This document shows, piece after piece, positions 1 through 14,743 of a stretch of DNA of 64,000 nt. A program made the translations under genes and the position numbers. How positions within the stretch are numbered: the stretch's first letter is position 1; every line of letters begins with the position of its first letter. Origin of the DNA: Pseudomonadota bacterium (GTDB lineage Bacteria; Pseudomonadota; Gammaproteobacteria; Burkholderiales; Sulfuricellaceae); assembly GCA_021801705.1 (NCBI GenBank), contig JAJYXP010000019.1, positions 1 to 64,000 of the forward strand. The letters are read 5' to 3'. The notes below the pieces were generated by a model. The model had not been told where the DNA came from and did no database searches. It saw nothing but the letters and a program-made list of their open reading frames with translations.

Positions 1-790
1 GTCCCGGCAGAAGTTCGTGCCGCTGGTCGCCGATACGCACGATGACCTTGTGCCGATGGGGAAGCCTGAATTCGGATACTGCATTCGGGTCGAGAATGAT
101 CTCATCAAACTTCAACATCGTCCATAGTTGAATGCCGGTTCCCGGCAGTTGCCACGCGCGCGCCTGCCAGCCTTCATTCACCGGATAGGAAGGAAGATGG
201 ACGGTTCCCAGTACGGGCTCGCGGCCAGCGGCGGGAGTCCAGAGGAATGCGGGCGCAAAACCCTTGTTCGAACTGGTGTAGAAGCGATAGCCTTCCAGCA
301 CCAGCGGCGTCTGGTCGCCGATTTCGGCGTGCTGTTCCTTGCCGCGGGCATCAGTATACTGCACCGCATTGCGGGTTTTCCCGCGCTGTATGCCCGGGGC
401 GTATTCGATGCTGAAGCCGTCGTTGGTAAAATGCACCCGGTCCAGCCCAGACTGGTGCCAGGGTCCGGCTTCGGATGCGGTCAATTGGCCATCGAATGAT
501 TCCCCTTCGGATAACTCGACATGTCCTTTCAGATAAGTGAGGCGGCCCGCCGCCACCAGTAAAACAATCGCAATCAAAGCCAGATGGAACAACAGCAGCG
601 CGCCAGACCGGCGAAAGGCGGGGTTGGTCAGCACGGCTGCGATCAGGTTCAATGAGAGCAGCAGCAAAGGCAACACCAGCGCCAGTGTCGTGTGCTCTTC
701 GCCGAGATAAGCGACCAGGATGCCGGCCGCAAAAAAAACAAGCGCCGCCAGCGTGAGCTTGAGCGACGCCAGCGCGCGGCATGCGCGCAT
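1..790 (-). CDS. ResB-like cytochrome c biogenesis membrane protein, partial (C-terminus outside window)
   Basis: An open frame starts at the ATG at 790 and runs off the window edge after 263 codons. The ATG shares its A with the TGA stop of the upstream 11-haem cytochrome gene, so translation is probably coupled. Three hydrophobic segments (about residues 8-27, 35-56 and 63-81) are followed by a hydrophilic, presumably periplasmic domain. That layout matches ResB, the CcsB partner in System II cytochrome c maturation, where a fourth membrane helix should lie beyond the edge. ResB-type proteins help deliver haem and reduced apocytochrome. Here it may be dedicated to the many c-type haems of this locus. 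The frame is clear; the family assignment rests on topology and general resemblance. Confidence 0.62.
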   Translation of the reverse strand, partial: MRACRALASLKLTLAALVFFAAGILVAYLGEEHTTLALVLPLLLLSLNLIAAVLTNPAFRRSGALLLFHLALIAIVLLVAAGRLTYLKGHVELSEGESFDGQLTASEAGPWHQSGLDRVHFTNDGFSIEYAPGIQRGKTRNAVQYTDARGKEQHAEIGDQTPLVLEGYRFYTSSNKGFAPAFLWTPAAGREPVLGTVHLPSYPVNEGWQARAWQLPGTGIQLWTMLKFDEIILDPNAVSEFRLPHRHKVIVRIGDQRHELLPG

Positions 791-3360
791 CAGGGCGGGT
801 TTGAGCACGTAGAGCCCATCCAGCCGTGCATCATGCAGCCCCCGGTGTTGGTGTTGTTGCTGGTGCTGCCCTGGCTGTTGGCGATGAGGTTGGCGCCGGT
901 CTTGCCCGCCGAACCGCAATCCGACGCCGACCAGTTGCCGCTGGCTTTGAAATTGACGATCTTGTTTTTCGCCATGTAATAGTAGGGCTCCTTGGTGTAA
1001 TAATACGCGCTGCCCGAGATGGCCACTTCCTTGCTGCCGCTCTGCCCGGCCTCTGCGCCGACGTCGTTCAGGTTGACCAGCAGCGATTTGTTCTTCCAGC
1101 CGTGCGGCACCGCCACGTGGCACCAGGTGCAGCGCAGCTCCTTGCCTACCCTGCCCACATGGTAGTTGTGCAGGTTGCCTTGACTTCCATAGAAGCCGCT
1201 CGTCCTGCCGCTATTGCTGCTGCCTGAATAGGCGGATTTCTGGTGGCACTTGAAGCACAGCAAATTGGCATTGCCGCCCGTCGCATCGGTCCATGCCCCC
1301 TTGAGCAGGAAATCATTGCCCGATCCATGCGGCCCCCACGGGCTGCCGTTGTCGCCGTTATCCGGAATCACCGACGTGGTCGATGAAACGTTCGAGCCAT
1401 GGCAGTCGGAGCAATACATCGTGCTCGAGCCGACATTGTTGCCCCACGGCAGCAGAAACGAATTGGTGGTGATGTTGCGCGCCGCCAGGGAGCGGCCGGT
1501 ATTGTTCATCACCGGGTGCCAGGAGCGATGGTTGTTGGTGTTGTAGGCGCTATCCGCCCCGGCATCCGTGCCCAGACTCAGCGGCTCGCCCTGATGCGTC
1601 GCCGGCGCCTGGAATTCCTTGGCCTGGTTGCTGTAGATCGTCAGCCCGTTGGTCCCGGACGGGGTGCCCGGCGAGCCGAGCGGCGGCCGGTTGCCGGTGG
1701 GATAGACATTGTTGTCCGAATAGCCGTAGTCGGAATGGCATTTCAGGCAAATCTGGTATTCCCGCGTCACATAGGTTGCGCTGGCGGCGGTATTGGTATT
1801 GGCGCCCGGATCACCCCGCTTGACCGTATAACCGGATGGCAGCGCATGAAAGGACGCCGACGCATAGCCCGGTTCCACGCCGAAGGTGCCGCGCAGCGCG
1901 CCCGACGCGATATTGGTGTGATTCATCGCGGTATCGGTATGCGGATGCGTGCCCACCCCGTCCGGCGCGCCGGTGATCGAGCCGGCCGGATTGCCGCGGA
2001 AATCGCGGAAATTCACCACCCGGTGCGGATTGTGGCAATCGGAGCATTCGGCATGGCGGTTGCTCAGGGTCGCCACCCCGAGCTTGGCGCGCGATTCGAG
2101 CAGATCCTTGCCGCACTGGCCGGTCGGCGTGGGCGTGTTGGCGCAATTGGCCAGCGCGCTGTCATTGAAATTGCCGCCGATGTCGTGCGCCTCGGTGCCC
2201 GCCATCTGCTCGGTCGACTTGATCGGCATGTGGCGCAACAGACTGAAATCGGTCTTGATGTCGGGAATGGCGTTGGCCGAACCGGCGGTATAGATCACCG
2301 CCGCGGACGCGCTGGTGGTGTGGCAGGTGTAGCAGGCCTCCTCCAGCGCCGGATTGCCGCCGGTTTTGGGCAAGGCGAGGCTGTCCGTGCCCTCGCGCAG
2401 CAAACGCCGCGCGCCCTGCACGGTATGCGTGTCGTGGCAGTTCAGGCAGGCCGCCTGCCACACCTGGGTGCCGGTCGCGAACTCGCGCTGTGCGGCGGCG
2501 GTCGCGGTATAGGCTTGCGTCGCCACCTGGCTGTTGGCGTGCGTCGAGTAGGCCCAGGACAAGCCCCCCTTGTCATGACAGGCCAGGCAGACGATATCGG
2601 TGGACTGGCTGAACGAGGCGCCGGGCTGTGCCGCCTGCAGGCGGTTCATGCGCAGGAACTTGGCGTTCGCATCCGCGGTGTCCTTCATATGCGGGTCATG
2701 GCAGGTCGCGCACTGCATCTGGTTGTTTTCCAGCGGCATCTTCGGCTTCGGGCTGACGCCCGCCTGGCGGTTGCCGACGACGGGATTGCCGGAGATCTGG
2801 CGCAGTTCGCCGTCAGCGCTGGCGAGGGTGTCGTTGTAGGTGAAGGAAATGGGGTGGTCGTTGGTCAGGTTGATGCCCAGGTTGCGCGTATAGCCGGTGG
2901 TCGTGCCGCTGCCGGGCGGCATGTAGGCCGGCGACGTGGCCACGCCGCCGATCGTCATCGCGATGGTGGGATCGCTCGCGCCATTGAGCACGTTGACCTT
3001 GTCGACCGCCATCGTGCCGTCGTGGCACGACAGGCAGAGCTTGGAGCTGCCGCCGGGCGCGGCCGCCATTTCCGCCGCGCTGGCCTCGATCGAGCTGGAT
3101 GTATAGGGGGTATAGGTGGCCGTGGACAATTTGCGGTTCCACAGCGGCGACGGCACGGTGGTATCCGCGCTGTGAGGCGTATGGCAGAACACGCAAACCT
3201 GCGTTTCGGAGGCGGCCTTGAGGGTGCCGGTTCCGGTGACGGAGAGGTTGTGCGGGGTGTTGCGCACATCCGATATCTTGGCGGCCTGCACCACGCCCAC
3301 CGCCAGCAGCACGGCAAGGCCGGCCGGAACCGCCCGGAAACGTTTATGCCACGGCATCAT
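790..3360 (-). CDS. Secreted 11-haem c-type cytochrome (doubled CXXCH family)
   Basis: The 856-residue protein has a signal peptide (hydrophobic core about 10-26, ending VVQAA) and eleven CXXCH sites: CVFCH, CLSCH, CATCH, CLACH, CLNCH, CYTCH, CSDCH, CLKCH, CSDCH, CFKCH and CTWCH. The first four with their surroundings (CHTPH, CHDGT, NDHPI, CHDPH) repeat the layout of the tetrahaem protein at 12404-13318, so it looks like the same module extended by seven haems. It should act in the periplasm or outside the cell as an electron conductor. Its start overlaps the preceding NHL lipoprotein stop by 4 bases and its stop overlaps the ResB-like start, so it sits in a tight operon. The substrate cannot be told from sequence. 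Confidence 0.9.
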   Translation of the reverse strand: MMPWHKRFRAVPAGLAVLLAVGVVQAAKISDVRNTPHNLSVTGTGTLKAASETQVCVFCHTPHSADTTVPSPLWNRKLSTATYTPYTSSSIEASAAEMAAAPGGSSKLCLSCHDGTMAVDKVNVLNGASDPTIAMTIGGVATSPAYMPPGSGTTTGYTRNLGINLTNDHPISFTYNDTLASADGELRQISGNPVVGNRQAGVSPKPKMPLENNQMQCATCHDPHMKDTADANAKFLRMNRLQAAQPGASFSQSTDIVCLACHDKGGLSWAYSTHANSQVATQAYTATAAAQREFATGTQVWQAACLNCHDTHTVQGARRLLREGTDSLALPKTGGNPALEEACYTCHTTSASAAVIYTAGSANAIPDIKTDFSLLRHMPIKSTEQMAGTEAHDIGGNFNDSALANCANTPTPTGQCGKDLLESRAKLGVATLSNRHAECSDCHNPHRVVNFRDFRGNPAGSITGAPDGVGTHPHTDTAMNHTNIASGALRGTFGVEPGYASASFHALPSGYTVKRGDPGANTNTAASATYVTREYQICLKCHSDYGYSDNNVYPTGNRPPLGSPGTPSGTNGLTIYSNQAKEFQAPATHQGEPLSLGTDAGADSAYNTNNHRSWHPVMNNTGRSLAARNITTNSFLLPWGNNVGSSTMYCSDCHGSNVSSTTSVIPDNGDNGSPWGPHGSGNDFLLKGAWTDATGGNANLLCFKCHQKSAYSGSSNSGRTSGFYGSQGNLHNYHVGRVGKELRCTWCHVAVPHGWKNKSLLVNLNDVGAEAGQSGSKEVAISGSAYYYTKEPYYYMAKNKIVNFKASGNWSASDCGSAGKTGANLIANSQGSTSNNTNTGGCMMHGWMGSTCSNPP

Positions 3361-4421
3361 CCGCCTCCCAGGAATTGAAAAATGACGACACGCCCGTTGA
3401 ACATGTCAGCCACATAGATCCGCCCCTGCGGGTCGCTCCAGACGCCCGCCGGCAGGTAAAACTGGCCAATTTCCTTGCCGGTGCCGCCGAGGGGCATGAG
3501 GAAGTTTCCCTGATCGTTGAATACCAGCAGACGATCATAATATGATTCTACTACATACAGGTTGCCGGAAGGATCGACCGTCATGCCCTTGGGGCGTACA
3601 AAATCACCCACCTTCAGCCCGCGCCGTCCCAGTGTGCCAACGAACTTGCCCTGCGCGTCGAACGTCTGCACCCGCGCATTCATGGTGTCGGCCACGTACA
3701 GCTTGCCGGCAGCGAAGACGAGATGGGTGGGGAAGTTGAACTCTCCGTCCGCTTCACCGCGGCGGCCGATTACTTTCACCAGATGACCATCGTCACCGAA
3801 CACCTTGATGTCATGGGCGTAGGTGTCCGCCACGTAGATCAGCCCCCGTTGCGCATCCCGCGCCAGCCCCGTGGGGCGTTTCAGCACGTCCTGGCCGAAC
3901 TCGCCTACGGGATTGCCCTCACGGTTCAGCCGGAACACGCCATGCAGCCCGGCATCCGTCACCAGCATTTCGCCCCGCGCGCCTGGCGCGATTCCGATCG
4001 GGGTCTCGAAGCGGGTGTTTTCACGCGCCATGTCCCAGACTTGCAGCGTTCCTGCCGGTTTGTCGAAAACGTACACCGCCTCACGGCTGGTATCGGTCAC
4101 ATAGATGCGGCCTTCGGCGTCCACCGTGCCGCTCTGCGGCCGTTGCAGCACAACCCGCTCAGTGCCGCCTCCGACAAGGCCGACCAGCCATTCGAATACT
4201 TTCACCGCGGTGCTGCGGGCTTCTTCGTTTTCGGGGCCGAAGTTTTCCTCCCCGGTCAATTGCCCCAGATAGCGGTAACGGGGTTTCTCCGGCGGCTCCG
4301 GCCATACCTTGGGCGCGCCCTGGCTCATGCCGGTGAGGCGGAACACAGTATGCGTTTCCGCACAGCCGGTCATGAGCGTCAAAAAGGCAAGGCCAAGCAG
4401 GGCGGTCAGCAGCGGGCGCAA
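3357..4421 (-). CDS. NHL-repeat beta-propeller lipoprotein
   Basis: The 354-residue protein begins with a lipoprotein signal (lipobox LMTGC, Cys20) and then has about five to six NHL units recognisable from recurring patterns such as GRIYVTD, GLIYVAD, KLYVADT and GRIYVADMFNGRV. NHL propellers are protein-interaction modules. Predicted anchoring is to the outer membrane. It overlaps the 11-haem cytochrome gene by 4 bases and follows a second NHL gene after one base, so these three are one transcriptional unit. NHL proteins are recurrent neighbours of multihaem cytochrome genes in metal-reducing and metal-oxidising bacteria; assembly or secretion help is inferred. It has no haem motif and no evident catalytic site. 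Confidence 0.85.
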   Translation of the reverse strand: MRPLLTALLGLAFLTLMTGCAETHTVFRLTGMSQGAPKVWPEPPEKPRYRYLGQLTGEENFGPENEEARSTAVKVFEWLVGLVGGGTERVVLQRPQSGTVDAEGRIYVTDTSREAVYVFDKPAGTLQVWDMARENTRFETPIGIAPGARGEMLVTDAGLHGVFRLNREGNPVGEFGQDVLKRPTGLARDAQRGLIYVADTYAHDIKVFGDDGHLVKVIGRRGEADGEFNFPTHLVFAAGKLYVADTMNARVQTFDAQGKFVGTLGRRGLKVGDFVRPKGMTVDPSGNLYVVESYYDRLLVFNDQGNFLMPLGGTGKEIGQFYLPAGVWSDPQGRIYVADMFNGRVVIFQFLGGG

Positions 4422-4422
4422 T

Positions 4423-5370
4423 TCATTCCCCTTTCGTATCCAAGGCCTGGGGGGCGATCAGCATGATCTGCACCCGCGCGTTCAGGCTGTCCGCCACGTA
4501 GAGCAGGCCCCCGTCCACCGCCAGCCCCGCGATATTATTGAAGCGGCCCGGCCCGGCGCCGGCGCCGCCGGTCGTGGCCACCAGTTGGCCGTTCCGGTAG
4601 ACCTTGACGGTCTGGTCGAAATTGTCGCCCACGAACACCAAATTTCCACGGTCCGCGGCGATGGCTTTGGGGTCGGCCAGGGTGCCCGCGCCGAAGGCAT
4701 AGCGGTAGGATCCGTCCCGCCCAAGCACGACCACCTGCCGGGCGAGGCGGTCCACCACGTAGATCCCGTCCGGCCCTTGCGCCATGGCGGTAATGGCGCG
4801 CACCCGCTGCGGCTTGATGACGGACAGCGCTCTGCCCAGATTGTTGAACGCGACGATTTGATCGTACAGGGCGTCGGCCACCAGCAACTGCCCGCTGCTT
4901 TCATCCACTGTGATGGAAATCGGGCGCCCCAGGTTGCCGGGCGAAATCAGCGGCGGGAGCGGGGTGCCATCCCAGGCGAAATGCAGCACCTGACCGCGGG
5001 CTGGATCGGTTACGTAGACAGACATGTCGGGCGCGGCGTAAACGCTCATTCCGGCGTCAGCAGCCAAGCTCGTGAATGGCGCCAGGGTTTGCTCGGCACG
5101 GCCGTAGCGCAAAACGCGGCGCAGGCCCGCATCCACCAGGTAGACGTCGTTGCCTCGGGCACTCACGGCGGTGGGGTGGCGCAGCGTGACGTAGCCCGAG
5201 CCACCATGCCGGGCGACATCCGGCAGCCCCCTCAACGCGCCTGAGTTGGCACCGGTCAGATCGATCCACGGCTGCAGCAATTCGTCCCGCGCCGACGTGC
5301 CGGCGGAAAAAACGCCGGTCAGCATCAAAACCGCAATGACGCCCAGTTTGACGAAAAAGTGCCGTTTCAT
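4423..5370 (-). CDS. NHL-repeat beta-propeller protein, secreted
   Basis: The start chosen is the ATG at 5370, which gives MKRHFFVKLG and a typical signal peptide ending near GTSA, with AGGA 9 bases upstream. The longer upstream frame overlaps the preceding cytochrome gene and has no sensible N-terminus. The mature part has repeated NHL blades (GNDVYLVDAG, SVYVTDPARG, GLLYVADSLNARV). It lacks a lipobox, unlike the neighbouring NHL proteins at 3357 and 13595, so it is probably soluble in the periplasm or exported. It lies 39 bases downstream of a trihaem cytochrome gene and one base before the next NHL gene. A scaffold or assembly role for the cytochrome conduit is inferred. Confidence 0.82.
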   Translation of the reverse strand: MKRHFFVKLGVIAVLMLTGVFSAGTSARDELLQPWIDLTGANSGALRGLPDVARHGGSGYVTLRHPTAVSARGNDVYLVDAGLRRVLRYGRAEQTLAPFTSLAADAGMSVYAAPDMSVYVTDPARGQVLHFAWDGTPLPPLISPGNLGRPISITVDESSGQLLVADALYDQIVAFNNLGRALSVIKPQRVRAITAMAQGPDGIYVVDRLARQVVVLGRDGSYRYAFGAGTLADPKAIAADRGNLVFVGDNFDQTVKVYRNGQLVATTGGAGAGPGRFNNIAGLAVDGGLLYVADSLNARVQIMLIAPQALDTKGE

Positions 5371-5408
5371 GGCGCCATCCTGTCGCTCCCGGTTGAAAAA
5401 TAAAACGG

Positions 5409-5840
5409 TCACCATCTGCCGGGACCCCCGGTGGAAGCTCCGCCGATGACTCCGCTTTGCAAGCCGGGCCGTCCGGTGTGGCACAAATCGCAGCGGTCCG
5501 CACCCCAGGCTATATTGTCATTGTGGCACATGCCGCAGAATTTGCCTTCGATGATGTCAGACATGAGCACAACGTTGTCACCGGCGCGCATCTTGAAGCC
5601 GAGCTCGGAGTGGCATACCTTGCACTGGAAGCGGATGCGGTGGAACCAGTGGGGGAATATCACCGGCCGGACTCCTTCCTTCTCCGAGTGCTTGTTGAAC
5701 ACAACATCGCCAAATTCGGCCCGGATGGGAAACGGGGCGAGCAGCATGAGCATTGTGAGCGCGATTGCGCTCACTCGCACGTACCGGCGAATGCCGTGTC
5801 GGATGTGCTTTTGCTGATTGTATCCCATGCCTTGTCCCAT
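5409..5840 (-). CDS. Trihaem c7-type cytochrome, copy A2
   Basis: The 143-residue periplasmic cytochrome has a signal sequence (hydrophobic stretch about 25-40) and three CXXCH sites: CKVCH, CGMCH and CDLCH. The block FPHWFHR just before the first site supplies likely distal histidines. It is a clear paralogue of the protein at 8214-8642, with the same FPHWFHR and CKVCH blocks and closely similar spacing. Its ATG follows the TAG of the upstream trihaem gene directly, with no gap, which suggests coupled translation. c7-type proteins carry electrons across the periplasm; partners here would be the barrel and the 11-haem protein. Confidence 0.88.
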   Translation of the reverse strand: MGQGMGYNQQKHIRHGIRRYVRVSAIALTMLMLLAPFPIRAEFGDVVFNKHSEKEGVRPVIFPHWFHRIRFQCKVCHSELGFKMRAGDNVVLMSDIIEGKFCGMCHNDNIAWGADRCDLCHTGRPGLQSGVIGGASTGGPGRW

Positions 5841-6425
5841 CTAACGCGCCTTGGCAGCCCCTCCGGGCACTGGACGGGGCTCGTTGTGGCAGCGCTTGCA
5901 CTCGGTCAAGGGAAACGCCACCGCGCCATGGCAGCGGCCGCAGAATTCCCCCTGCAGGATGTTGAACATGTTGAATCCCGGGGTGGTCCCGGCTTTGGAC
6001 TTGAACAGCCCTTCGTGGCAGTTGCTGCAATCCAGGAATTCGGAGTGCTGCTTGTGGGGAAAACGCACCATGGACAGCTCCGCGGTATTCTTCATCAGTA
6101 CGTCCGGAGGCTCCTTCTTGTCGAGCACCTTGACCTTGGTCCCGGCGTAAATGTTGGTGCGCGGGTTGATCTTCCCCTGCTCCAGCGCCTTGACCCAGTT
6201 CACCTGATTGCCGGCCGTATCGGGAGGCAGTTTGGAGAGTGCCTCGGCGGGATTCTGCAACTGGTTCAGCGCAGTATTCGACGGATCGTGCAGGCCGTCC
6301 TGCGCCAGTGGCTTCCAGTTGCCGGCCCACGCCAGCCCCGCGCTGATGGCTATCGCCACCGCCATGACCCAGCTCCAGCGGCGGGCGGGTTTGACCCGCC
6401 GCTGCTCGCGCGATGTTCTGCCCAT
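5841..6425 (-). CDS. Trihaem c7-type cytochrome, copy B2
   Basis: A product of about 194 residues with one N-terminal hydrophobic segment (signal peptide or anchor, ending near GLAWA) and three haem sites near the C-terminus: CSNCH, CGRCH and CKRCH. The motif FPHKQH precedes the first site. The ATG at 6425 is preferred over the GTG at 6431 because AGAGGTGA lies a suitable distance upstream. It is paralogous to the protein at 7519-8205, sharing WVKALxxGKINPR and FPHKQH. It lies 9 bases downstream of the helical protein gene. The haem-free N-terminal half (about 100 residues) is shared with its paralogue and may be a docking region. Confidence 0.86.
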   Translation of the reverse strand: MGRTSREQRRVKPARRWSWVMAVAIAISAGLAWAGNWKPLAQDGLHDPSNTALNQLQNPAEALSKLPPDTAGNQVNWVKALEQGKINPRTNIYAGTKVKVLDKKEPPDVLMKNTAELSMVRFPHKQHSEFLDCSNCHEGLFKSKAGTTPGFNMFNILQGEFCGRCHGAVAFPLTECKRCHNEPRPVPGGAAKAR

Positions 6426-6434
6426 AGTCACCTC

Positions 6435-7346
6435 TTATCCCGGAATGAATATGCCGGCGCTGCGGATGGCGCGGACCAGTTCCTTGGTGGAGTCCTCCAG
6501 CATTTTTATACCAGCCTCGTAATCGCCTTTCTTGGCTTGTGCTTCCGCCATGGCGCGCAGATTTGCGGCCTGATCCAGGAATTTCTGCGTCATGGGGTTG
6601 ATGCCCGATGCCCCAAATTTCTCCTCGAGCAATACCTTGACCAGCATCTTGTGGGTATCGTTGCGGTCTGTTTCGTAATGATATTCCTCTTCCTTGGTGG
6701 CAAAGCTCAGCGAGCGCACCAGGGTATCGCCTTCGCGCAGGCCGCCAATCGCCGTCTTGGCCGCCAGCAACGCCTGATCAAGCGTGGAGATGGCTTCGTC
6801 CAGCTTGTTTGCGGCGGCCAGCGTATTCGCCTGTTGCACCAGCCCTTCGATTTTGCGGCTTACTGCCCCTTCCTTGGCGTCCAGGTGCTTCTCGGTGCCG
6901 ATGCGCTTTTGTGCTGCCAGCAGAGTTTTCACGCTTTCCATGCGGGAATCGAAGTCCCGCCGCTTTTTTTCACGGGTGACCTGTTCCGGCGCGGCCAGGC
7001 GCACGCCTTCGAACAGGGTTTTGGCCGCCTCGTCCAGCAGGCTTGTGCTCTTGCCATAGTCCTGCGCCTCGAATGCCTCGACGGCCTGGCGCCGAAGTGC
7101 GCGTGCCTTGTCGCGGCGCGCCACGGCCTCTGGATTGTGGCTGGCTTCGATCTGCTTCGCCGCCGACGACTTCTCGATCAAAGTCTCGACCGATTGCAGG
7201 CGCCGCCCCAACTGCTCCTTGTCTTCAGCCGCCCGGACTTTGACGGGAGGGGTAGGCGTGGAAACCGGTTCGGCGGCCATGGTTGCCTGGGCAATGCCCA
7301 GTCCGACGCACATGGAGAGCAGTCGTACAACAAAACATCGTTTCAT
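6435..7346 (-). CDS. Periplasmic all-helical (TPR-like) protein of the cytochrome locus
   Basis: The start at 7346 (MKRCFVVRLL) gives a signal peptide ending TMAAE, with GGAACGG just upstream. The mature 280 residues are rich in A, E, K, L and R with repeating helical hairpins (AxxxxxxxDYGKSTSLLDEAAK, KKGDYEAGIKMLEDS), like tetratricopeptide or coiled-coil repeats. It has no CXXCH motif and no catalytic signature. It is the central gene of the arrangement A1-B1-this-B2-A2 of trihaem cytochromes, so a scaffold or spacer for periplasmic cytochromes is inferred. I do not recognise a named family. Confidence 0.75.
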   Translation of the reverse strand: MKRCFVVRLLSMCVGLGIAQATMAAEPVSTPTPPVKVRAAEDKEQLGRRLQSVETLIEKSSAAKQIEASHNPEAVARRDKARALRRQAVEAFEAQDYGKSTSLLDEAAKTLFEGVRLAAPEQVTREKKRRDFDSRMESVKTLLAAQKRIGTEKHLDAKEGAVSRKIEGLVQQANTLAAANKLDEAISTLDQALLAAKTAIGGLREGDTLVRSLSFATKEEEYHYETDRNDTHKMLVKVLLEEKFGASGINPMTQKFLDQAANLRAMAEAQAKKGDYEAGIKMLEDSTKELVRAIRSAGIFIPG

Positions 7347-7373
7347 GATTTTTCCGTTCCAAAACACGCGGGT

Positions 7374-7403
7374 ATTATCCTCAAGTTTTCTTCAAAGCAA
7401 CAA
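7374..7403 (-). promoter_or_regulatory. Possible sigma-70 promoter before the helical periplasmic protein gene
   Basis: On the minus strand TTGTTG (7403-7398) and GATAAT (7379-7374) are 18 bases apart, with the ATG of the helical protein gene 27 bases downstream of the -10 box. It would allow the second half of the operon to be transcribed independently of the first. The match is moderate. Confidence 0.35.
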
Positions 7404-7410
7404 TAATTTC

Positions 7411-7436
7411 GTAAGGTGCGCATGGCGCACCCTACG
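7411..7436. repeat. Small palindrome in the gap between copies B1 and the helical gene
   Basis: GTAAGGTGCGC and GCGCACCCTAC form an 11-bp stem with one mismatch around a 3-base loop. Palindromes of the GTAGGGTG type recur at 58173-58247. It could slow or stop transcription between the two halves of the operon. Confidence 0.5.
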
Positions 7437-7518
7437 ATAGTTCACTTTTGACGGCGAAATGGAATTACTCCGGCACAATCAGGCAGACTGTCCACAATGC
7501 GCGGCTTTTCCTTCGCCA

Positions 7519-8205
7519 TCACTTCGCCTCTGTCTTGGCTGCCACCGGTTTCGCCTTGTCATGGCAACGGCGGCATTCGGCAACCGGGAAAGCGACCGTG
7601 CCGTGGCAGACGCCGCATTTTTGCCCCAGCATGATGGCCGCCATGCTGATCTGGTTGGCGCCTTTTTGCGGGAGGAAAATGGCAGGATGGCAGTTGGAGC
7701 AGTCCAGCCATTGCGTGTGCTGCTTGTGGGGAAAGCCCACGCCAGGCATGGAGCCTTTGACCTCGCGCACGATGTTAAGGTCCATGAGCACCGGTTTGGC
7801 TTTCGGGTCGTTGCGGTCCCAGCGTGGGTTGATCTTGCCTCCGTCCAGCGCCTTCACCCAGTCCACCCCGTTGCCGAAGTCGCCCTGGGATTTGGGCAGG
7901 CCGCCAAAGGATTCCAGCGGGGTCTGCAGCATCTGGGTGCCATCGTTGGCGGGATCGTGAATGCCATCCTTGTCAGGCGGCAGATGGCGTTTCGGCGCGA
8001 CCCTCATCAGCCGGTTGAAAGGGTTGGCCTCGGATCCCGCGATTGCGGCCTGCGGCTGGGCTGCAGGCGCGGCGGCCGTCTCCGTTTTGGCCTCTGTTGC
8101 CGGCTTTCCCTTCGCCGGCTGGGCCGCAGTGGCAAGAGTACCCCATGACGCAAGCAGCAGCGCGGATACCAGAGTGAAGTGTGCTAATTTAAATGGACTG
8201 TTCAT
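7519..8205 (-). CDS. Trihaem c7-type cytochrome, copy B1
   Basis: The start is the ATG at 8205, preceded by AGGAGGC; the long upstream frame is spurious because it overlaps the real gene at 8214. The 228-residue product has a signal peptide (cleavage near TLATA), an Ala/Lys/Thr/Glu-rich linker of about 40 residues, and a haem domain with FPHKQH, CSNCH, CGVCH and CRRCH. It is a paralogue of the gene at 5841-6425 and follows copy A1 after 8 bases. Predicted role: periplasmic electron carrier. The flexible linker is absent from copy B2 and may let the haem domain reach between membrane partners. Confidence 0.86.
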   Translation of the reverse strand: MNSPFKLAHFTLVSALLLASWGTLATAAQPAKGKPATEAKTETAAAPAAQPQAAIAGSEANPFNRLMRVAPKRHLPPDKDGIHDPANDGTQMLQTPLESFGGLPKSQGDFGNGVDWVKALDGGKINPRWDRNDPKAKPVLMDLNIVREVKGSMPGVGFPHKQHTQWLDCSNCHPAIFLPQKGANQISMAAIMLGQKCGVCHGTVAFPVAECRRCHDKAKPVAAKTEAK

Positions 8206-8213
8206 GTTGCCTC

Positions 8214-8642
8214 CTATTTCTTGCCGACCGGGGGTTTGGCCGGGTTTAGCAGTTCGTGCGACTTGCTTTCGTGTACTTGGGTCGGCGTGCCGGGCTTGCC
8301 GGAATGACACAGGTTGCAGTTTTCGACCGACCAGGCGATGGTGCCATTGTGACAGGCGCCGCAATATTGGCCGTCCATGATCTTGAGCATGTCGATATTG
8401 TTGCCGCCCGCCTTGAACTTGAACCCGAGGTCGGCGTGGCATACCTTGCAACTGTAGCGGACGCGGTGGAACCAGTGGGGAAATACCGCCGGGCGCATGC
8501 CTGCGGCGTCCGAGTTGTTGTTCATGATCACATCGCCGTACTCGGCCATGGCGGGCCGGGTATCGACGAAGGCTGTGGCCAGGACGAGCGTCCCGACGAA
8601 CAGCATCCGTCCTATGAGTGTGCGTCTAATTAATGATGGCAT
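8214..8642 (-). CDS. Trihaem c7-type cytochrome, copy A1
   Basis: The 142-residue secreted cytochrome has a signal peptide ending RPAMA and three haem sites (CKVCH, CGACH, CNLCH) after the FPHWFHR block. GGGAGG lies ahead of the ATG. It lies 43 bases downstream of the outer-membrane barrel gene. The nearest relative in the window is the protein at 5409-5840. Small trihaem proteins of this kind carry electrons through the periplasm in Geobacter-type systems; the link to the adjacent barrel is inferred from position. Confidence 0.88.
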   Translation of the reverse strand: MPSLIRRTLIGRMLFVGTLVLATAFVDTRPAMAEYGDVIMNNNSDAAGMRPAVFPHWFHRVRYSCKVCHADLGFKFKAGGNNIDMLKIMDGQYCGACHNGTIAWSVENCNLCHSGKPGTPTQVHESKSHELLNPAKPPVGKK

Positions 8643-8685
8643 TATTGTTTTCCTCCCTTTCGTTGATAAAAAGTTTTCTGGTGCA

Positions 8686-11010
8686 TTATTGGGCTCCGAA
8701 CGGCCTGTTCAGGCTGAACATGAGTAAGGATTGCGTGGTGCTGTTGTTGCTGCTGCTGATTTCCGATATGCGCGCGCTGAGCCGCAACTGGAGACGCCCG
8801 ATGGAATAGTCCAGGCGGTTTTCCCAGGAGCGGGACTCCTGCTGCCGTGGTCCCGCAAATACCGGCAGGGGCATGTCGCCGTAAATCCGCAGTTCGGAGA
8901 CAAAATTAAGGCGCGGTACACCGAAGGCGCGCTGATGGCGATAACTCAAGTCGGCGCTGGAGGTGGTGGTGGTAGTGACCGGCGTATCGGGCGTGGTGAG
9001 GGTGGTGACTGGCGCGTTGTAGTAAGCGTTAGGCATGATGCCGGTTTTCTGACGCACCGCCTGGAGGGTCAGGTTGCCGGTCCACGATGCATTGCGGGTC
9101 AGGCCCTCGTTGCGGGACGCCTGCAGGTTGATGAGCTGAAAGAAATCATTGGTGCCGCTCACGGCACGGGAATCGCTGGCGCTCAAACGCAAAAAGGTGT
9201 TTCTCTGGCCTTCCGCATGGCTCCATGTCAGCGAGCCGCTGTGAGACAGGCGCACAATGCTTGGAATGCTGGTGTCGAAATCCGACGAAGCGGTCTGATT
9301 CAGGTTCAGCCCCAGCGAGCCGACGCCGAGGCCCATACTGCGGTTCAGGCTATGTCCAAGTTGCAGCGCAACGTGCTGCCCGCTGTCGATAGGATCGATC
9401 CGATTGGTCACGGTGCCGGAGGCGAATCCGTTGTAGTTGAAGCTGGCGAAGTCGAACGTGTCCGACTGGTAGGTAATCCCGCCGGATTGATTGCTGGCTA
9501 CGGTCTGGGTGCCATTGCTGTCGTTGACGTTGACGTTTGCGCTGCTGTTCAGCCGGATGTGTTTGGACAGTTCGTAGAACGCGCCCAGGTTGGCGTTGAC
9601 GCTGCGCAGCGCGGAAGGGGTGGCGCCGTTGCTGCTGCTATTCAAGCCGAACAGCCGCGCGCTGCCGGTCACGGTGAGGGGTTTCTCGGCAGGGTGCCAG
9701 AACGCGGAGCTGCTCAACTGCAGGTAGCGGGTGTCGGTTTGTCCTTGCGCCAGGCGGTAGTTCGTCTGGCTCAGGTTGGCAAGATTTTCAACCGAGAGGG
9801 TGGGGTCCGGTATATAGCTATGGCGGACTACCAAGGTGTCGAGCATGGTGCTTTCGTGGGTTTGCTGGCGCTCGGTGTTGTTGATGTCGCCGTTTATCTG
9901 GAGTGTTTGCTTGGCTAGGCGCTTCGTCATTTCGAGGCGCAACAAATCCTGCTGGTCAGTGCCGAAGACCGCGCTTTCCCAAATGTTGCGGTCATAGCTT
10001 GCCATGTATTGGGTATCGCCTGTCAAGGTGCGGTAGCGTTGAGTCAGGCCGTAGCGGGTGCTTCGATAGGAAGAGTCGATTGCGCTGAGGCCAGTTTCCA
10101 GCCGGTTGTCGCTCCGGTCGAAATGCGCCTCGAACGGGAAGCGGCTGTATGGCAACAGGTTTAGGGTGGCATTGCCCGTGATGATATTGCTCGTCACTTT
10201 GTCCTCAGTCGTATTGGAACTGAAACTGGAACTGGAACTTGAACTGGTACGGGTACTGCTGAGACCCAGACCGCCGCCCACCTGGGCGAACCAGGGCTGC
10301 CAGATGAAAGAGTTGGTGCTGGCGTTTACCTTGGTTGTGATCGACTGCGACAGGTATTTTATTTCCCCGTAGGTTTCCTTGCGCAGGTCATAACCTATGT
10401 TTCCCCAAGTCCTGATGGGGGGGATTGCCAGCTTTAAATGGCGTTCGGCGGCGGGAGCGGCGGCAGCCGTTTCTTCGGCGGGACCAGCAGGCGCCGTTTC
10501 TTCGGAACGGACGGCGGTTTTCACGTTCGGCCCATCGGCAAGCTCGGTGACAGGTGATGTGTCGACCATTTGGGCTAATTTCAGATGCACCTGTTGGGCT
10601 TTGCTGTCCCCGTCATCGTAATTCGCTGTGTAATCTGGAGCGGCAGAAGCCGTTTCTTCGGCACGGCCGGATGATTTCCCGTTGGGTGCGTCAGCAAGCA
10701 TGGCGACTAGCGATGCATCGGCCATTTGGGAAAGCTTAAGACGCATCGGTTGGGCGTTGTTGCCGCTGCTTTCCGAATCCGCAGCGAAGTCTGGATTGTC
10801 CGTAGCACCCTTGTCCGTTGCGCCATCCGGTGGGCTATCGCCGTTTCCATTGCCTGCGGCGTTGAGTCTGGCAGTGAGCGGTGGCGTCATCGTCCCCCCC
10901 AGGGGGATCTGGCTAGCGGGGAACGCCGGGCGCGGCCAACCGAAAGCCAGCGATACCGCCAACATGATGCAGATCTCCGGCTCGTATTTGCCGTTCCATT
11001 TTCCACCCAC
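8686..11010 (-). CDS. Outer-membrane beta-barrel, porin-like, with repetitive N-terminal extension
   Basis: The product is about 774 residues. Start choice is uncertain: TTG at 11052, GTG at 11010 (GAGGAG four bases upstream, chosen), or an ATG that leaves a very short signal. A hydrophobic signal ends near FPAS. About 150 low-complexity residues follow, with two copies of a unit of roughly 35 residues (LKLSQMADAS..., LKLAQMVDTS...) and a partial third (HLKLA). From about TWGNIGYDLRK the sequence alternates polar and hydrophobic residues, is rich in N, S, T and Y, and has no haem motifs, as expected for some 20 or more beta strands. It fits the barrel of a porin-cytochrome conduit, lying between a PPIase gene and cytochrome genes. 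No named family is certain. Confidence 0.75.
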   Translation of the reverse strand: MGGKWNGKYEPEICIMLAVSLAFGWPRPAFPASQIPLGGTMTPPLTARLNAAGNGNGDSPPDGATDKGATDNPDFAADSESSGNNAQPMRLKLSQMADASLVAMLADAPNGKSSGRAEETASAAPDYTANYDDGDSKAQQVHLKLAQMVDTSPVTELADGPNVKTAVRSEETAPAGPAEETAAAAPAAERHLKLAIPPIRTWGNIGYDLRKETYGEIKYLSQSITTKVNASTNSFIWQPWFAQVGGGLGLSSTRTSSSSSSSFSSNTTEDKVTSNIITGNATLNLLPYSRFPFEAHFDRSDNRLETGLSAIDSSYRSTRYGLTQRYRTLTGDTQYMASYDRNIWESAVFGTDQQDLLRLEMTKRLAKQTLQINGDINNTERQQTHESTMLDTLVVRHSYIPDPTLSVENLANLSQTNYRLAQGQTDTRYLQLSSSAFWHPAEKPLTVTGSARLFGLNSSSNGATPSALRSVNANLGAFYELSKHIRLNSSANVNVNDSNGTQTVASNQSGGITYQSDTFDFASFNYNGFASGTVTNRIDPIDSGQHVALQLGHSLNRSMGLGVGSLGLNLNQTASSDFDTSIPSIVRLSHSGSLTWSHAEGQRNTFLRLSASDSRAVSGTNDFFQLINLQASRNEGLTRNASWTGNLTLQAVRQKTGIMPNAYYNAPVTTLTTPDTPVTTTTTSSADLSYRHQRAFGVPRLNFVSELRIYGDMPLPVFAGPRQQESRSWENRLDYSIGRLQLRLSARISEISSSNNSTTQSLLMFSLNRPFGAQ

Positions 11011-11065
11011 TTCACTCCTCGCATCCCGCTGCCGCGTGCGAACTCTTTTCAATTATCCCATAAAA

Positions 11066-11103
11066 AGCGGTTAAACCGCCAAGACGCCAAGTAATGGCGA
11101 AGA
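11066..11103. repeat. Single arm of the CCGCCAAGACG repeat, upstream of the barrel gene
   Basis: ACCGCCAAGACGCCAAG with its flanks matches, on the opposite strand, the right arm of the repeat at 24159-24290. The match extends into CTTTTTATGGGAT, which lies just upstream of the gene in both places. The rest of the 194-base gap between 11010 and 11205 is AT-rich and shows nothing else convincing. Confidence 0.6.
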
Positions 11104-11204
11104 AAAAACAAGTTAGCCAAAACACCCGGTTAGTAATATGTAAACACCCTGTAACAACATGAAATTATTGAAAATCTTGGTGGTTGCGATAGCCGTTTTT
11201 ATGA

Positions 11205-12233
11205 TTATTTCTTTACAGCGTGCTCTCCGGCATCTGTGGTAAGGGGTAAGTAGCGCGATTCATCCACATGGACGGGCGTTTCCTTCCTGAGTCGTGCGAT
11301 GAGCGACTTCCAGGCGCGCTCGCTTTGCTCCCGCAGCCACAGTTCGCGTATGCGTACTTTGGCCGCCTCGAAGCTGTTCAACTGCGGTAGTTTGCGCTCG
11401 CTCAGGCGAACTATGCCTACGCCTTCCAGCACCCTGATGGGGTCGGAGATGGCGCCCGGTTTGAGCTTGTCCACGGTTCCCTGGACCGTATCGGACATCA
11501 TGCCCCGATGCATGTAGCCCAGGTCGCCCCCTTGCTCCGCTGAAATGTCACCGGATTTGGCGCGCGCCAATGCGGCAAAATCGGCGCCATCACGCAAACG
11601 CTTGACCAGCGCTTGCGCCTCTTCGCGCGCCTTCTCCCATGCGGCCGTGGGCGAGGACGGATCCACTTTGAGCAGAATATAGGAGAGCCGCAGTTGTTCG
11701 GGTTCAGTGAATTTGTCCGGATGGGCAGCGTAATAATCGCGCATCTGCTTTTCATCCGGGGGCGGCACGTTGCGGACAAGCTTTTCCAACTGGCTCAGCA
11801 GGCTTTCCTCTTGCAACCGTTTGGTAAGCGACTGCACCAATTGTGCGCGGTTCTGCTTATATTGTTCGTTGTTGCGGTAGCGCTGCTCGTACTGCTCGAG
11901 CGTTTTCTGGATCGCCGCATCGTCCGGTTTCAGGGCACGACGCCGGGCTTCGCGCAGCAGCAGCGCATTGGTGACCAGGGTTACGCCCACTTCCCGCTGC
12001 AGAACGGCGATCGCGCCCTCGGGCGGTTTGCCGTGATAAAACTTGCGGCGAGCCGCCCCGTCAAGCGCGATGTCGTAGTCCTGCTGGGTGATGACGATGC
12101 TTCCAACCTTGGCGAAAACCGGCGACACGCTGACGGCGGCACCGGGCGGGGGCGCGTCACCGGCAAAGGCGCCCATGCCGAACAGGGCGCCGGCGAGCAG
12201 CGCCAGGAGCGGTAGATGTTGCTTAGGTTTCAC
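11205..12233 (-). CDS. Periplasmic parvulin-type peptidyl-prolyl isomerase (PpiC/SurA-like)
   Basis: 342 residues with a GTG start, a signal peptide ending MGAFAG, a long helical N-terminal chaperone part, and a parvulin domain at about 170-275 (LSYILLKVD, FAALARAKSGD, GGDLGYMHRGMM, GAISDPI). The size and order match the PpiC/PrsA group, which help outer-membrane and exported proteins fold. The gene directly precedes the barrel gene at a distance of about 190 bases. PPIase genes are repeatedly found beside exported multihaem cytochromes, so dedicated help for the barrel or the tetrahaem protein is inferred. The shine-dalgarno is weak. Confidence 0.9.
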   Translation of the reverse strand: MKPKQHLPLLALLAGALFGMGAFAGDAPPPGAAVSVSPVFAKVGSIVITQQDYDIALDGAARRKFYHGKPPEGAIAVLQREVGVTLVTNALLLREARRRALKPDDAAIQKTLEQYEQRYRNNEQYKQNRAQLVQSLTKRLQEESLLSQLEKLVRNVPPPDEKQMRDYYAAHPDKFTEPEQLRLSYILLKVDPSSPTAAWEKAREEAQALVKRLRDGADFAALARAKSGDISAEQGGDLGYMHRGMMSDTVQGTVDKLKPGAISDPIRVLEGVGIVRLSERKLPQLNSFEAAKVRIRELWLREQSERAWKSLIARLRKETPVHVDESRYLPLTTDAGEHAVKK

Positions 12234-12320
12234 GTGCGGGGAGTACCTCTTGACATGTCGGTTGATGAATGTGTGCGGCGGGAGCCGGTATCAGGGCCGT
12301 ATGCCGGGCACAATATGGAC

Positions 12321-12354
12321 AAAAGAAGGGCCGGACGAGAATTCTGTCCGGCCC
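12321..12354 (-). terminator. Rho-independent terminator after the tetrahaem cytochrome gene
   Basis: On the minus strand GGGCCGGAC and GTCCGGCCC form a 9-bp stem followed by TTCTTTT. A second hairpin (CCGGACGG/CCGTCCGG) lies just before it. It separates the tetrahaem gene from the PPIase operon and would let the cytochrome be made at a higher level than the rest. Confidence 0.75.
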
Positions 12355-12403
12355 GCCTGTTCCCGGACGGGTTGTGCCGTCCGGTATGTGTGCTACATCC
12401 TTC

Positions 12404-13318
12404 TTACTTGGTATGGCAAGCCAGGCATAACGCGCTGCCGGCGTTGGACATACGCAGGAAAGTCGGCTGCGCGCTGGTGTGTGGGTCGTGGCAACTGGCA
12501 CACTCTACGAAGGCTTGCGCACCGGTGAGGACTGCGCCGGCTGATCCATCCGGATTGACCGAGGCGGATCCGGTACGCGTGTAGAGCATCATGTCGGCCT
12601 TGTCGCGCGTACCCGATACGGTACCCGAGTCTACCCACCATACCGGCTGACCATTCAAACTTGCGTACTTCAGGGCTTTAAAATCAGCATCCTTTAGCGC
12701 GCCGGCGGCAATGTCGGCTGCCGTGTATGCTCCACCCGCCGGCATGCCGCCGCCATACTGTATGCCAATCGGATGGTCATTCCTCAAGTCCTGACCGATC
12801 CTGGTGATGCTCGTGGCGGTGCCGAGCACGCCGGCAGTCTGGCCCGTTCCGGCCCAGGCGCCTGCCCAGGCAGCACCGGCGGAATTATAGCCTCCCGAAC
12901 CGGGCTGGTTGATCATGACGTTCATCGCCGTTGTGCCGTCATGGCAGGAAAGGCAGGCCAGCGACACCGAACCGACCGGCGCGGTTGCGCCATCCAGGCT
13001 GGTGGTGCCCAGGCTGTTGTAGGTGGTGTACGTGGTGGGGGCCGCCAATGCGCGGTTCCACAGCGGCACGACGGCACTGGTGTCGGAGCCGTGTGGCGTA
13101 TGGCAAAACACGCAAAGTTCGCCGGTGCCGGTGGTGGGGGTGAATGTGGCTGTTGCGCCAGAGCCGGCAGGGCTGCTGAGATTGTGCTTGGTGTCGGCAA
13201 TGCCGACCGCTGTCGCGGTCCCTTCCATCAGCATGCCGGCGGTCATGAGCGTTGCCGCACCGGCCAGCGCGGCGCCGATCTTGCGCGCCATTGTGCGTTC
13301 AACAAATATAGTTTTCAT
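12404..13318 (-). CDS. Tetrahaem c-type cytochrome resembling OmcE-type filament cytochromes
   Basis: The start is the ATG at 13318 (AAGGAAGGA upstream); the longer frame covers promoter DNA. 304 residues with a signal peptide ending about GTATA and four haem sites: CVFCH, CLSCH, CASCH and a C-terminal CLACH four residues from the end. Surrounding blocks CHTPHG, LACLSCHDGT, DLRNDHPIG, ECASCHDPH and SNAGSALCLAC are, to my recollection, the layout of Geobacter OmcE, which polymerises into extracellular cytochrome filaments. Filament formation here is inference. It has its own sigma-54-like promoter and terminator and lies between NHL lipoprotein and PPIase genes, as is common for such proteins. 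Confidence 0.85.
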   Translation of the reverse strand: MKTIFVERTMARKIGAALAGAATLMTAGMLMEGTATAVGIADTKHNLSSPAGSGATATFTPTTGTGELCVFCHTPHGSDTSAVVPLWNRALAAPTTYTTYNSLGTTSLDGATAPVGSVSLACLSCHDGTTAMNVMINQPGSGGYNSAGAAWAGAWAGTGQTAGVLGTATSITRIGQDLRNDHPIGIQYGGGMPAGGAYTAADIAAGALKDADFKALKYASLNGQPVWWVDSGTVSGTRDKADMMLYTRTGSASVNPDGSAGAVLTGAQAFVECASCHDPHTSAQPTFLRMSNAGSALCLACHTK

Positions 13319-13403
13319 GGCATTAATCCTTCCTTGCTCAAGATAAAAAAGTATGTCGCGGCCGCTTTTGACTGCTAACACTAAGTAACTTACATCATAT
13401 CTA

Positions 13404-13421
13404 AAGCATATGCCGTGCCAA
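13404..13421 (-). promoter_or_regulatory. Sigma-54 (RpoN) type promoter for the tetrahaem cytochrome
   Basis: The minus strand reads TTGGCACGGCATATGCTT. GG and GC are spaced exactly 12 bases apart, and the match to TGGCACG-N4-TTGCW has one mismatch (ATGC for TTGC). Transcription would start near 13395, giving a leader of about 77 bases before the ATG at 13318. Confidence 0.65.
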
Positions 13422-13506
13422 TATAAGCAACATATTGTTTTTCTAAGAAACATTTATCCCTGCCGAGAGCAGGTTTCCCATATTTGAGAATTAATTATAA
13501 CAATAT

Positions 13507-13522
13507 TTCTCAGTTATGAGAA
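13507..13522. promoter_or_regulatory. Inverted repeat, possible activator site upstream of the sigma-54 promoter
   Basis: TTCTCA-GTTA-TGAGAA is a 6-bp dyad about 90 bases upstream of the -24 element, where bacterial enhancer-binding proteins usually bind. Further GAGAA/TTCT half-sites occur at 13441-13450 and 13483-13490. The activator is not identified. Confidence 0.35.
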
Positions 13523-13594
13523 GTTGTTGTTGCTTAACGTGTTCGCAATGGACTGGATGGCGTTTGCGGACAGGATTATTGGGATTTTGCCGGT

Positions 13595-14743
13595 TCAAGG
13601 CGTGGTGCGTTTGCCCGGTTCGGACGGTGTTTTTTTGTCCAGCGCCTTTTTGCCGATATAGCCATCGTCCGGCGCAAGGGCGGCGGGACGATAGATGTCC
13701 ACCTTGCGGAAATATTGGTCCGCCACATAAACCCGCCCATCGTCATCCACCGCAATGCCGGAAGGAAGCATGTACCTGGCCGGCCCATCCACTTCCGAGC
13801 GGCTGCCGACGGCCAGCAGCAACTGCCCCTGGGGCGAGAAGATCTGGAAATTGCCGAAAGCGGTGTCCACTACATAGACGTTTCCGGCCTTGTCCACGGC
13901 GAGTCCCTTGGGCCGGGAGAATTGCCCCCCCTGGCGGCCGATGGCACCGAATATGCTGACCGGCGTGCCGTCGTCGCGGAACTTCTGAACGCGGAAATTG
14001 CCCCCGTCGACGACATATACCGAACCGTCCGGGGCGACCGCCGCGTCCACCGGCAAATTGAATTCGCCCGGCCCGGTGCCGCGCTTGCCGAAATCGAACA
14101 GATGATTGCCGGTTCGCGCGTCGAACACTCGCACGCGATGCTCCTCTTTCACAAGAACGCCCCCGAGGTCCACCACGTACACGCGGCGCCCGTCGGCATC
14201 GGCGGCGACGCCCGAGGGCCGGTGAAACCAGGTGGGGTCGCCTATGGAACGCAGGAATTTTCCCTCCCTGTCGTACACCATGACTTTCTTGGCGGAGCTG
14301 TCGACCACATAGAGGTTGCCCTGTCTGTCCAGGGTTAACCCGAGCGGAAGAATCAGTTGACCGGGATCATCTTCGCCGATCGTGAAAAAGCGCTTGGCGG
14401 GAATGTCGAACACCATCACCGCGTGGCTTGCCGAATCGCCCACGTAGAGGCGTCCATGGCGCACCGCAAGGCCGAAGGGTTTTGAAAGCCCTTCGCCCTG
14501 CGTCTGCTCCCCCGTGGCCATGCGCCTGAACCTGTCGGCGGACGACTCCTCGGGCTTGATATCCGCGCTGCTGTATAGCGAGCGTTCGTAGATGAACCTG
14601 GGCTCGTCGGGAGGGGGCGGGAATACGGGAATTGCCTGCTCTGCTTTCCGGGATTCCGGTACCGACATGCAGCCGCCCAGGACAAGGGCAGCGGCGAGAA
14701 TCAGGGTGTTGATCAACGAAAATGCAAGAAGTCGCTTCGTCAT
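13595..14743 (-). CDS. NHL-repeat beta-propeller lipoprotein upstream of the tetrahaem cytochrome
   Basis: 382 residues with a lipobox (LGGC, Cys25), a Pro-rich linker (FPPPPDEPRF) and about six NHL units (GRLYVGDSASHAV, GNLYVVDSSAKK, GSVYVVDGGNFRV, GNVYVVDTAFGNF, GRVYVADQYFRKV). GGAATC lies ahead of the ATG. It resembles the proteins at 3357 and 4423, making three NHL propellers in one locus. The linker motif PPxEPR/PPDEPR before the propeller is shared with the 3357 protein (PPEKPRYRY). Outer-membrane anchoring and a role in export or assembly of the cytochrome are inferred. Confidence 0.85.
   Translation of the reverse strand: MTKRLLAFSLINTLILAAALVLGGCMSVPESRKAEQAIPVFPPPPDEPRFIYERSLYSSADIKPEESSADRFRRMATGEQTQGEGLSKPFGLAVRHGRLYVGDSASHAVMVFDIPAKRFFTIGEDDPGQLILPLGLTLDRQGNLYVVDSSAKKVMVYDREGKFLRSIGDPTWFHRPSGVAADADGRRVYVVDLGGVLVKEEHRVRVFDARTGNHLFDFGKRGTGPGEFNLPVDAAVAPDGSVYVVDGGNFRVQKFRDDGTPVSIFGAIGRQGGQFSRPKGLAVDKAGNVYVVDTAFGNFQIFSPQGQLLLAVGSRSEVDGPARYMLPSGIAVDDDGRVYVADQYFRKVDIYRPAALAPDDGYIGKKALDKKTPSEPGKRTTP

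Follow-up and report, generated by a model that had tools for sequence, protein, structure and literature searches.

The window analysed here comprises 64,000 nucleotides (nt) of the Sulfuricellaceae assembly GCA_021801705.1 (contig JAJYXP010000019.1, positions 1-64,000) and carries a multihaem cytochrome cluster, all genes of which lie on the minus strand and run from position 14743 down to the contig start. Six open reading frames (ORFs) between 790 and 13318 contain 27 CXXCH motifs (4+3+3+3+3+11); the motif is absent from the barrel, peptidyl-prolyl isomerase (PPIase), tetratricopeptide repeat (TPR) and NHL ORFs of the cluster. A Pfam/NCBIfam scan identified a PPIC-type PPIase with a SurA-like N-terminus, three NHL proteins, four c7/nanowire_3heme cytochromes, paired-CXXCH cytochromes and a ResB-like protein. 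An initial annotation, made from the sequence alone, had listed 27 haem sites in six secreted cytochromes together with a barrel, a parvulin PPIase, three NHL propellers and a ResB-like protein. The motif count and family matches bear out this inventory, but it overlooked a haem-free TPR-like gene at 6435-7346 and a second OmcE-type module, located in the undecahaem cytochrome.

The gene set corresponds to the ‘undecaheme electron transfer’ (Uet) complex, described in Candidatus (Ca.) Tenderia electrophaga and six Gallionella (PMC10734462, PMC5371394, PMC12575090). In the Gallionellaceae pangenome UetJ is the undecahaem and UetA the tetrahaem cytochrome, UetB a peptidylprolyl isomerase and UetC a porin, while UetDEG are trihaem and UetHI NHL proteins (PMC10734462). 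A review writes the operon as uetABCDEFGHIJ (PMC12575090), and in the Tenderia metatranscriptome a tetratricopeptide gene sits among three trihaem genes, which were among the most highly expressed (PMC5371394). The window holds the ten Uet genes contiguously and in order, A (four haems), B (PPIase), C (porin), D and E (three haems each), F (TPR), G (three haems), H and I (NHL) and J (11 haems), the sole interruption being an extra trihaem gene between G and H. As gene types and order match the published list, the set is already known and named, not new. We put the probability that the locus is a Uet-type porin-cytochrome cluster, in a four-trihaem form and with the mechanism proposed below, at about 80%. 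The initial annotation had set its electron-transfer reading against a known named system with another role; the system is indeed a named one, but its proposed role is also extracellular electron transfer (PMC10734462, PMC12575090), and the functional reading therefore survives.

Upstream of uetA lies the gene for an NHL-repeat lipoprotein (13595-14743; lipobox LGGC, Pfam NHL 3.6e-34), a propeller that has no published Uet letter and is conserved in many clusters. UetA (12404-13318) is a secreted tetrahaem cytochrome with four CXXCH motifs and exactly eight histidines; the motif blocks initially reported for it (CHTPH, CLSCHDGT, DLRNDHPI, CASCHDPH and CLAC) are all present, but its start is likely at 13318, not at 13453. 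Next come UetB (11205-12233), a secreted PPIC-type PPIase (Rotamase_3 1.7e-18; SurA_N_3 2.8e-6) that is syntenic in nearly all clusters scanned, and UetC (8686-11052, start position uncertain), a haem-free, predicted outer-membrane β-barrel on the basis of AlphaFold2 strands. The four trihaem proteins are of c7 type, as had been proposed, all scoring above the curated cut-off of TIGR04257 nanowire_3heme (57.5-65.8 bits against 40 bits). They are the periplasmic UetD (8214-8642; 2.9e-18), which is 57-98% identical to its counterparts in related clusters, UetE (7519-8205; 1.5e-17), which has an N-terminal extension, the E-like UetG (5841-6425; 1.2e-15) and the extra, D-like cytochrome (5409-5840; 1.4e-17) between uetG and uetH. 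UetF (6435-7346), a haem-free, TPR-like secreted protein with weak Pfam TPR matches, is syntenic and occupies a position equivalent to that of the TPR gene Tel_16525 in the published operon. The trihaem region (5409-8642) reads in mirror order: D-like, E-like, TPR, E-like, D-like. UetH (4423-5370; Pfam NHL 3.4e-13) is an NHL propeller, and UetI (3357-4421; lipobox MTGC, Pfam NHL 1.3e-25) is an NHL propeller lipoprotein found in every cluster extending that far. The secreted undecahaem cytochrome UetJ (790-3360) has 11 CXXCH motifs and an N-terminal OmcE-type module, and is followed by a ResB-like cytochrome c maturation protein (1-789; PF05140 2.1e-12) that is cut by the contig start.

Related loci were gathered by the barrel and by UetJ, and then scanned with the window proteins. 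In this synteny survey, which the initial annotation had suggested, more than 20 other loci preserve the order A-B-C-D-E-F-G-(c7)-(H)-I-J, and more than 20 show the full window arrangement NHL-A-B-C-D-E-F-G-c7-H-I-J-ResB with minor differences. Such recurrence of the same genes in the same order shows that the arrangement is not a product of chance. Haem counts are constant, at 11 in every full-length UetJ and four in UetA. Three loci of one family, probably Tenderiales (L077-L079), contain exactly the ten genes reported for Tenderia, A(4) B C D(3) E(3) F G(3) H I J(11), and match all ten window parts at 25-62% identity.

Two cluster forms are evident, one with three trihaem genes and one with four, the fourth being D-like and located beside G. 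This extra c7 gene is present in L008, L009, L011, L012, L080, L081, L087, L092 and L105-L115, and not present in L077-L079, L084, L086, L088-L091, L094 and L095, the Tenderia-type form having three trihaems. The four-trihaem form, which occurs in other genera too, frequently contains a second TPR gene as well as an NHL lipoprotein gene preceding uetA; the window belongs to this group but has a single TPR gene. An NHL gene precedes uetA in L006, L009, L011, L012, L080, L081, L087, L091, L094, L105, L106, L109, L112 and L113. In most loci with sufficient flank, of both forms and including L077-L079, a ResB-like gene lies directly downstream of uetJ. The distribution within the family is patchy, as the barrel is found in 2 of the 12 host-genus genomes and in no other among 22 genomes of the family. 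The UetJ marker (threshold 1e-60) is present in 39/369 genomes of the class and 24/398 of the phylum, both evenly drawn samples, so the distribution of the Uet pathway may reach far beyond the few lineages mentioned in the available Uet literature.

Other betaproteobacteria have two opposite-strand trihaem cytochromes upstream of uet (L009:4000-6281, L011:3880-6137 and L012:4340-6756), of Cytochrome_CBB3 type in L009; this pair is not in the window. Four loci from the same family or genus (L043, L044, L045 and L046) carry other clusters with a distinct undecahaem protein and NHL genes, related to uet yet different, and L043/L044 also encode a 24-haem cytochrome.

The resemblance of the tetrahaem protein to OmcE, proposed initially from its motif blocks, is upheld by homology searches. 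UetA matches OmcE (7tfs) across the four haem blocks with a phmmer E value of 5.2e-26, and still at 1.4e-10 when every CXXCH is replaced by X; the persistence of the match after masking shows that it reflects more than the haem motifs alone. By sequence, UetA is a true OmcE homologue. In an alignment of 30 UetA proteins, 42 UetJ-like N-terminal modules, six pentahaem relatives, OmcE and 9yuq, eight OmcE histidines (four from CXXCH and four further) are invariant in all 30 UetA and all 42 UetJ modules, while the ninth OmcE histidine is not conserved. In OmcE filaments one haem is ligated by a histidine of the neighbouring subunit (PMC9473688, PMC12954529). With four haems and only four conserved candidate distal histidines, the trans-acting residue, whichever it is, must be present in UetA. 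This ligand conservation supports filament formation by UetA, while falling short of proof. The strongest competing view, to which we give somewhat less than even odds, is that UetA stays a monomeric cytochrome at the cell surface, docked on UetJ and UetC and in contact with the mineral. Consistent with this, the likeness of UetA to OmcE is one of sequence homology only, and the OmcE-type module is also fused inside UetJ and so need not always build filaments. Two observations stand against it. An OmcE-type filament requires one distal histidine to act in trans, and each of the four candidates is invariant in 30 UetA proteins; the window protein, moreover, has eight histidines, exactly the number required by a bis-histidine tetrahaem polymer.

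UetJ begins with the same OmcE-type block order as UetA, giving two such modules in the cluster. Profile and sequence searches match OmcE only at about residues 11-253 of UetJ, a tetrahaem module, and found no solved relative of the remaining seven haems. In the module tree the 42 UetJ rows form one group (support 100/98) apart from UetA, indicating that the two modules are old paralogues and not recent copies; OmcE itself joins this tree by a long branch that meets the 9yuq branch, which makes its placement unreliable. All 11 CXXCH histidines of UetJ and 16 others are invariant in at least 37 of 38 sequences, and these 16 extra residues suffice to make bis-histidine ligation possible for every haem. 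The leading speculative idea, which we nevertheless consider rather unlikely, is that UetJ might be a built-in socket, its OmcE-type module serving as the first subunit of the UetA filament and swapping a trans histidine ligand with UetA, with the other seven haems running into the UetC barrel. If true, a filament of OmcE type would be joined without intermediary to a conduit through the outer membrane.

A second, solitary uetJ lies beside nitrate/nitrite reductase genes on another contig of the host (C28; L038:7399-9972). About 950 nt of its 5′ end are 100% identical to the window gene (790-3360), whereas the rest diverges much more, which suggests gene conversion of the OmcE-type module. A genome of the same genus (G009) has two uetJ copies as well.

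UetC has no Pfam, NCBIfam or PDB sequence match, no solved barrel being matched by sequence, and does not match the MtrB/PioB family TIGR03509. An AlphaFold2 model built with nine homologues contains 28 long strands between residues 214 and 785, mostly with a predicted local distance difference test (pLDDT) score above 70; the N-terminal ∼200 residues are of low confidence. The best Foldseek match of the model is MtrB of the Mtr complex (6r2q_B, E 1.3e-8), supporting the view that UetC is predicted to be an MtrB-sized barrel, and nothing beyond that.

How extracellular cytochrome filaments exchange electrons with the cell is reported to be poorly understood (PMC10553843). In Uet clusters an OmcE homologue stands beside a porin and an undecahaem cytochrome that itself starts with an OmcE module, an arrangement that offers a testable wiring scheme. 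We infer that exported UetA polymerises to form an extracellular haem chain of OmcE type, or at least acts as one; transfer across the outer membrane would fall to UetJ together with the UetC barrel, and UetD, UetE, UetG and the extra trihaem copy, lined up by the TPR protein UetF, would relay electrons through the periplasm. Export, folding and maturation (haem attachment) of the cytochromes may be aided by UetB, the NHL propellers and ResB. The path would run from the donor to UetA, probably polymeric, to UetJ with UetC, to the trihaem relay and on to the inner membrane. Flow is most likely inward, in the form of uptake from iron or another external donor, in a host that bears RuBisCO.

Several points weigh against this interpretation. 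The AlphaFold2 model of UetA (12 homologues) reached a pLDDT of only 37; Foldseek gave no PDB match with E below 0.001, and the model was not used as evidence. The match between UetC and MtrB has low template modelling (TM) scores (0.37/0.43). Membership of Uet rests on later accounts and synteny, not on the founding description (mSphere 2022), and experimentally shown function of any Uet part was not found in the available Uet literature. Finally, an undecahaem cytochrome is also noted in the manganese-reducing Ca. Dechloromonas occultata (cited in PMC13264449), so the direction could be outward. The same cluster would then be a metal-reducing conduit for Mn(III) or Fe(III), for example, and not an uptake system. 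OmcE itself serves metal reduction in Geobacter (PMC9473688) and porin-cytochrome conduits are able to run both ways (PMC10734462), but with inward flow in a RuBisCO-bearing host preferred, we regard the outward direction as possible though rather unlikely.

Comparison with other systems places the locus closest to Uet. It shares with the clusters of Ca. Tenderia electrophaga and Gallionella the ten gene types, their order and the 4-, 3- and 11-haem counts, and differs in adding a fourth trihaem, the upstream NHL lipoprotein and ResB, the published Tenderia and Gallionella lists having three trihaems. The OmcE filament of Geobacter sulfurreducens (7tfs) is homologous to UetA over the haem modules, including the eight conserved histidines, and to the UetJ N-terminal module, but UetA has a long insert between haems 2 and 3 and sits in a porin cluster. 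MtrCAB/MtoAB also combine a large barrel, the best solved match of the UetC model being MtrB, with multihaem cytochromes; in contrast, the cluster has no decahaem MtrA-type protein and UetC is outside TIGR03509. PCC3 of iron oxidisers likewise has a porin with extracellular and periplasmic multihaem cytochromes, whereas the present cluster lacks both 20-35 haem cytochromes and a five-helix inner-membrane protein. PCC3 is defined by 10-35 and 21-27 haem cytochromes; the cluster maximum is 11 haems, and it has no periplasmic 21-27 haem protein. Haem counts and family scores led us to reject MtoAB, Cyc2-like and PCC3 as identities of the locus. OetABI/OmcKL of sulphate reducers partnering anaerobic methanotrophic (ANME) archaea similarly pair candidate cytochrome filaments with a porin conduit, and seep sulphate reducers possess a 16/26-haem operon that likewise encodes a PPIase and a six-bladed propeller (PMC5539420), but the cytochromes and haem numbers are different (PMC10553843, PMC5539420).

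The genes appear to encode an electron conduit of the outer membrane that differs from MtoAB, Cyc2 and PCC3, in agreement with the initial annotation, which had found no fit to MtoAB/Cyc2. The novelty implied there does not hold: these differences and a barrel that lacks a Pfam or NCBIfam family might speak for a previously undescribed system, but the match to the published Uet genes, exact in both content and order (PMC10734462, PMC5371394, PMC12575090), makes that extremely improbable. In the available Uet literature we found no mention that UetJ contains an OmcE module, that the ligands are strictly conserved, that the cluster exists in two forms or that ResB is associated with it; these points may nevertheless have been published.

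A partial haem inventory of the host genome revealed, on contig C38 (L124:8190-12042), a decahaem DmsE-like cytochrome, an MtrB/PioB-like barrel, the only barrel in the genome to match TIGR03509, and a PdsA-like dihaem protein; all score below curated cut-offs, and the set is likely a second electron conduit. Contig C51 encodes tandem pentahaem OmcE-type proteins after an NHL gene (L039:7576-8481 and 8961-10028). With RuBisCO, the C38 set, the solitary uetJ on C28 and the OmcE relatives on C51, the genome fits an autotroph with several extracellular electron routes. The C51 pair lies near an ApbE-family gene, and in two species its second copy has lost one distal histidine (CHTPN versus CHTPH). 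In the window, divergent from the cluster, a HAMP diguanylate cyclase (15196-17034) with two CXXCH motifs in its sensor part is a possible haem-based regulator.
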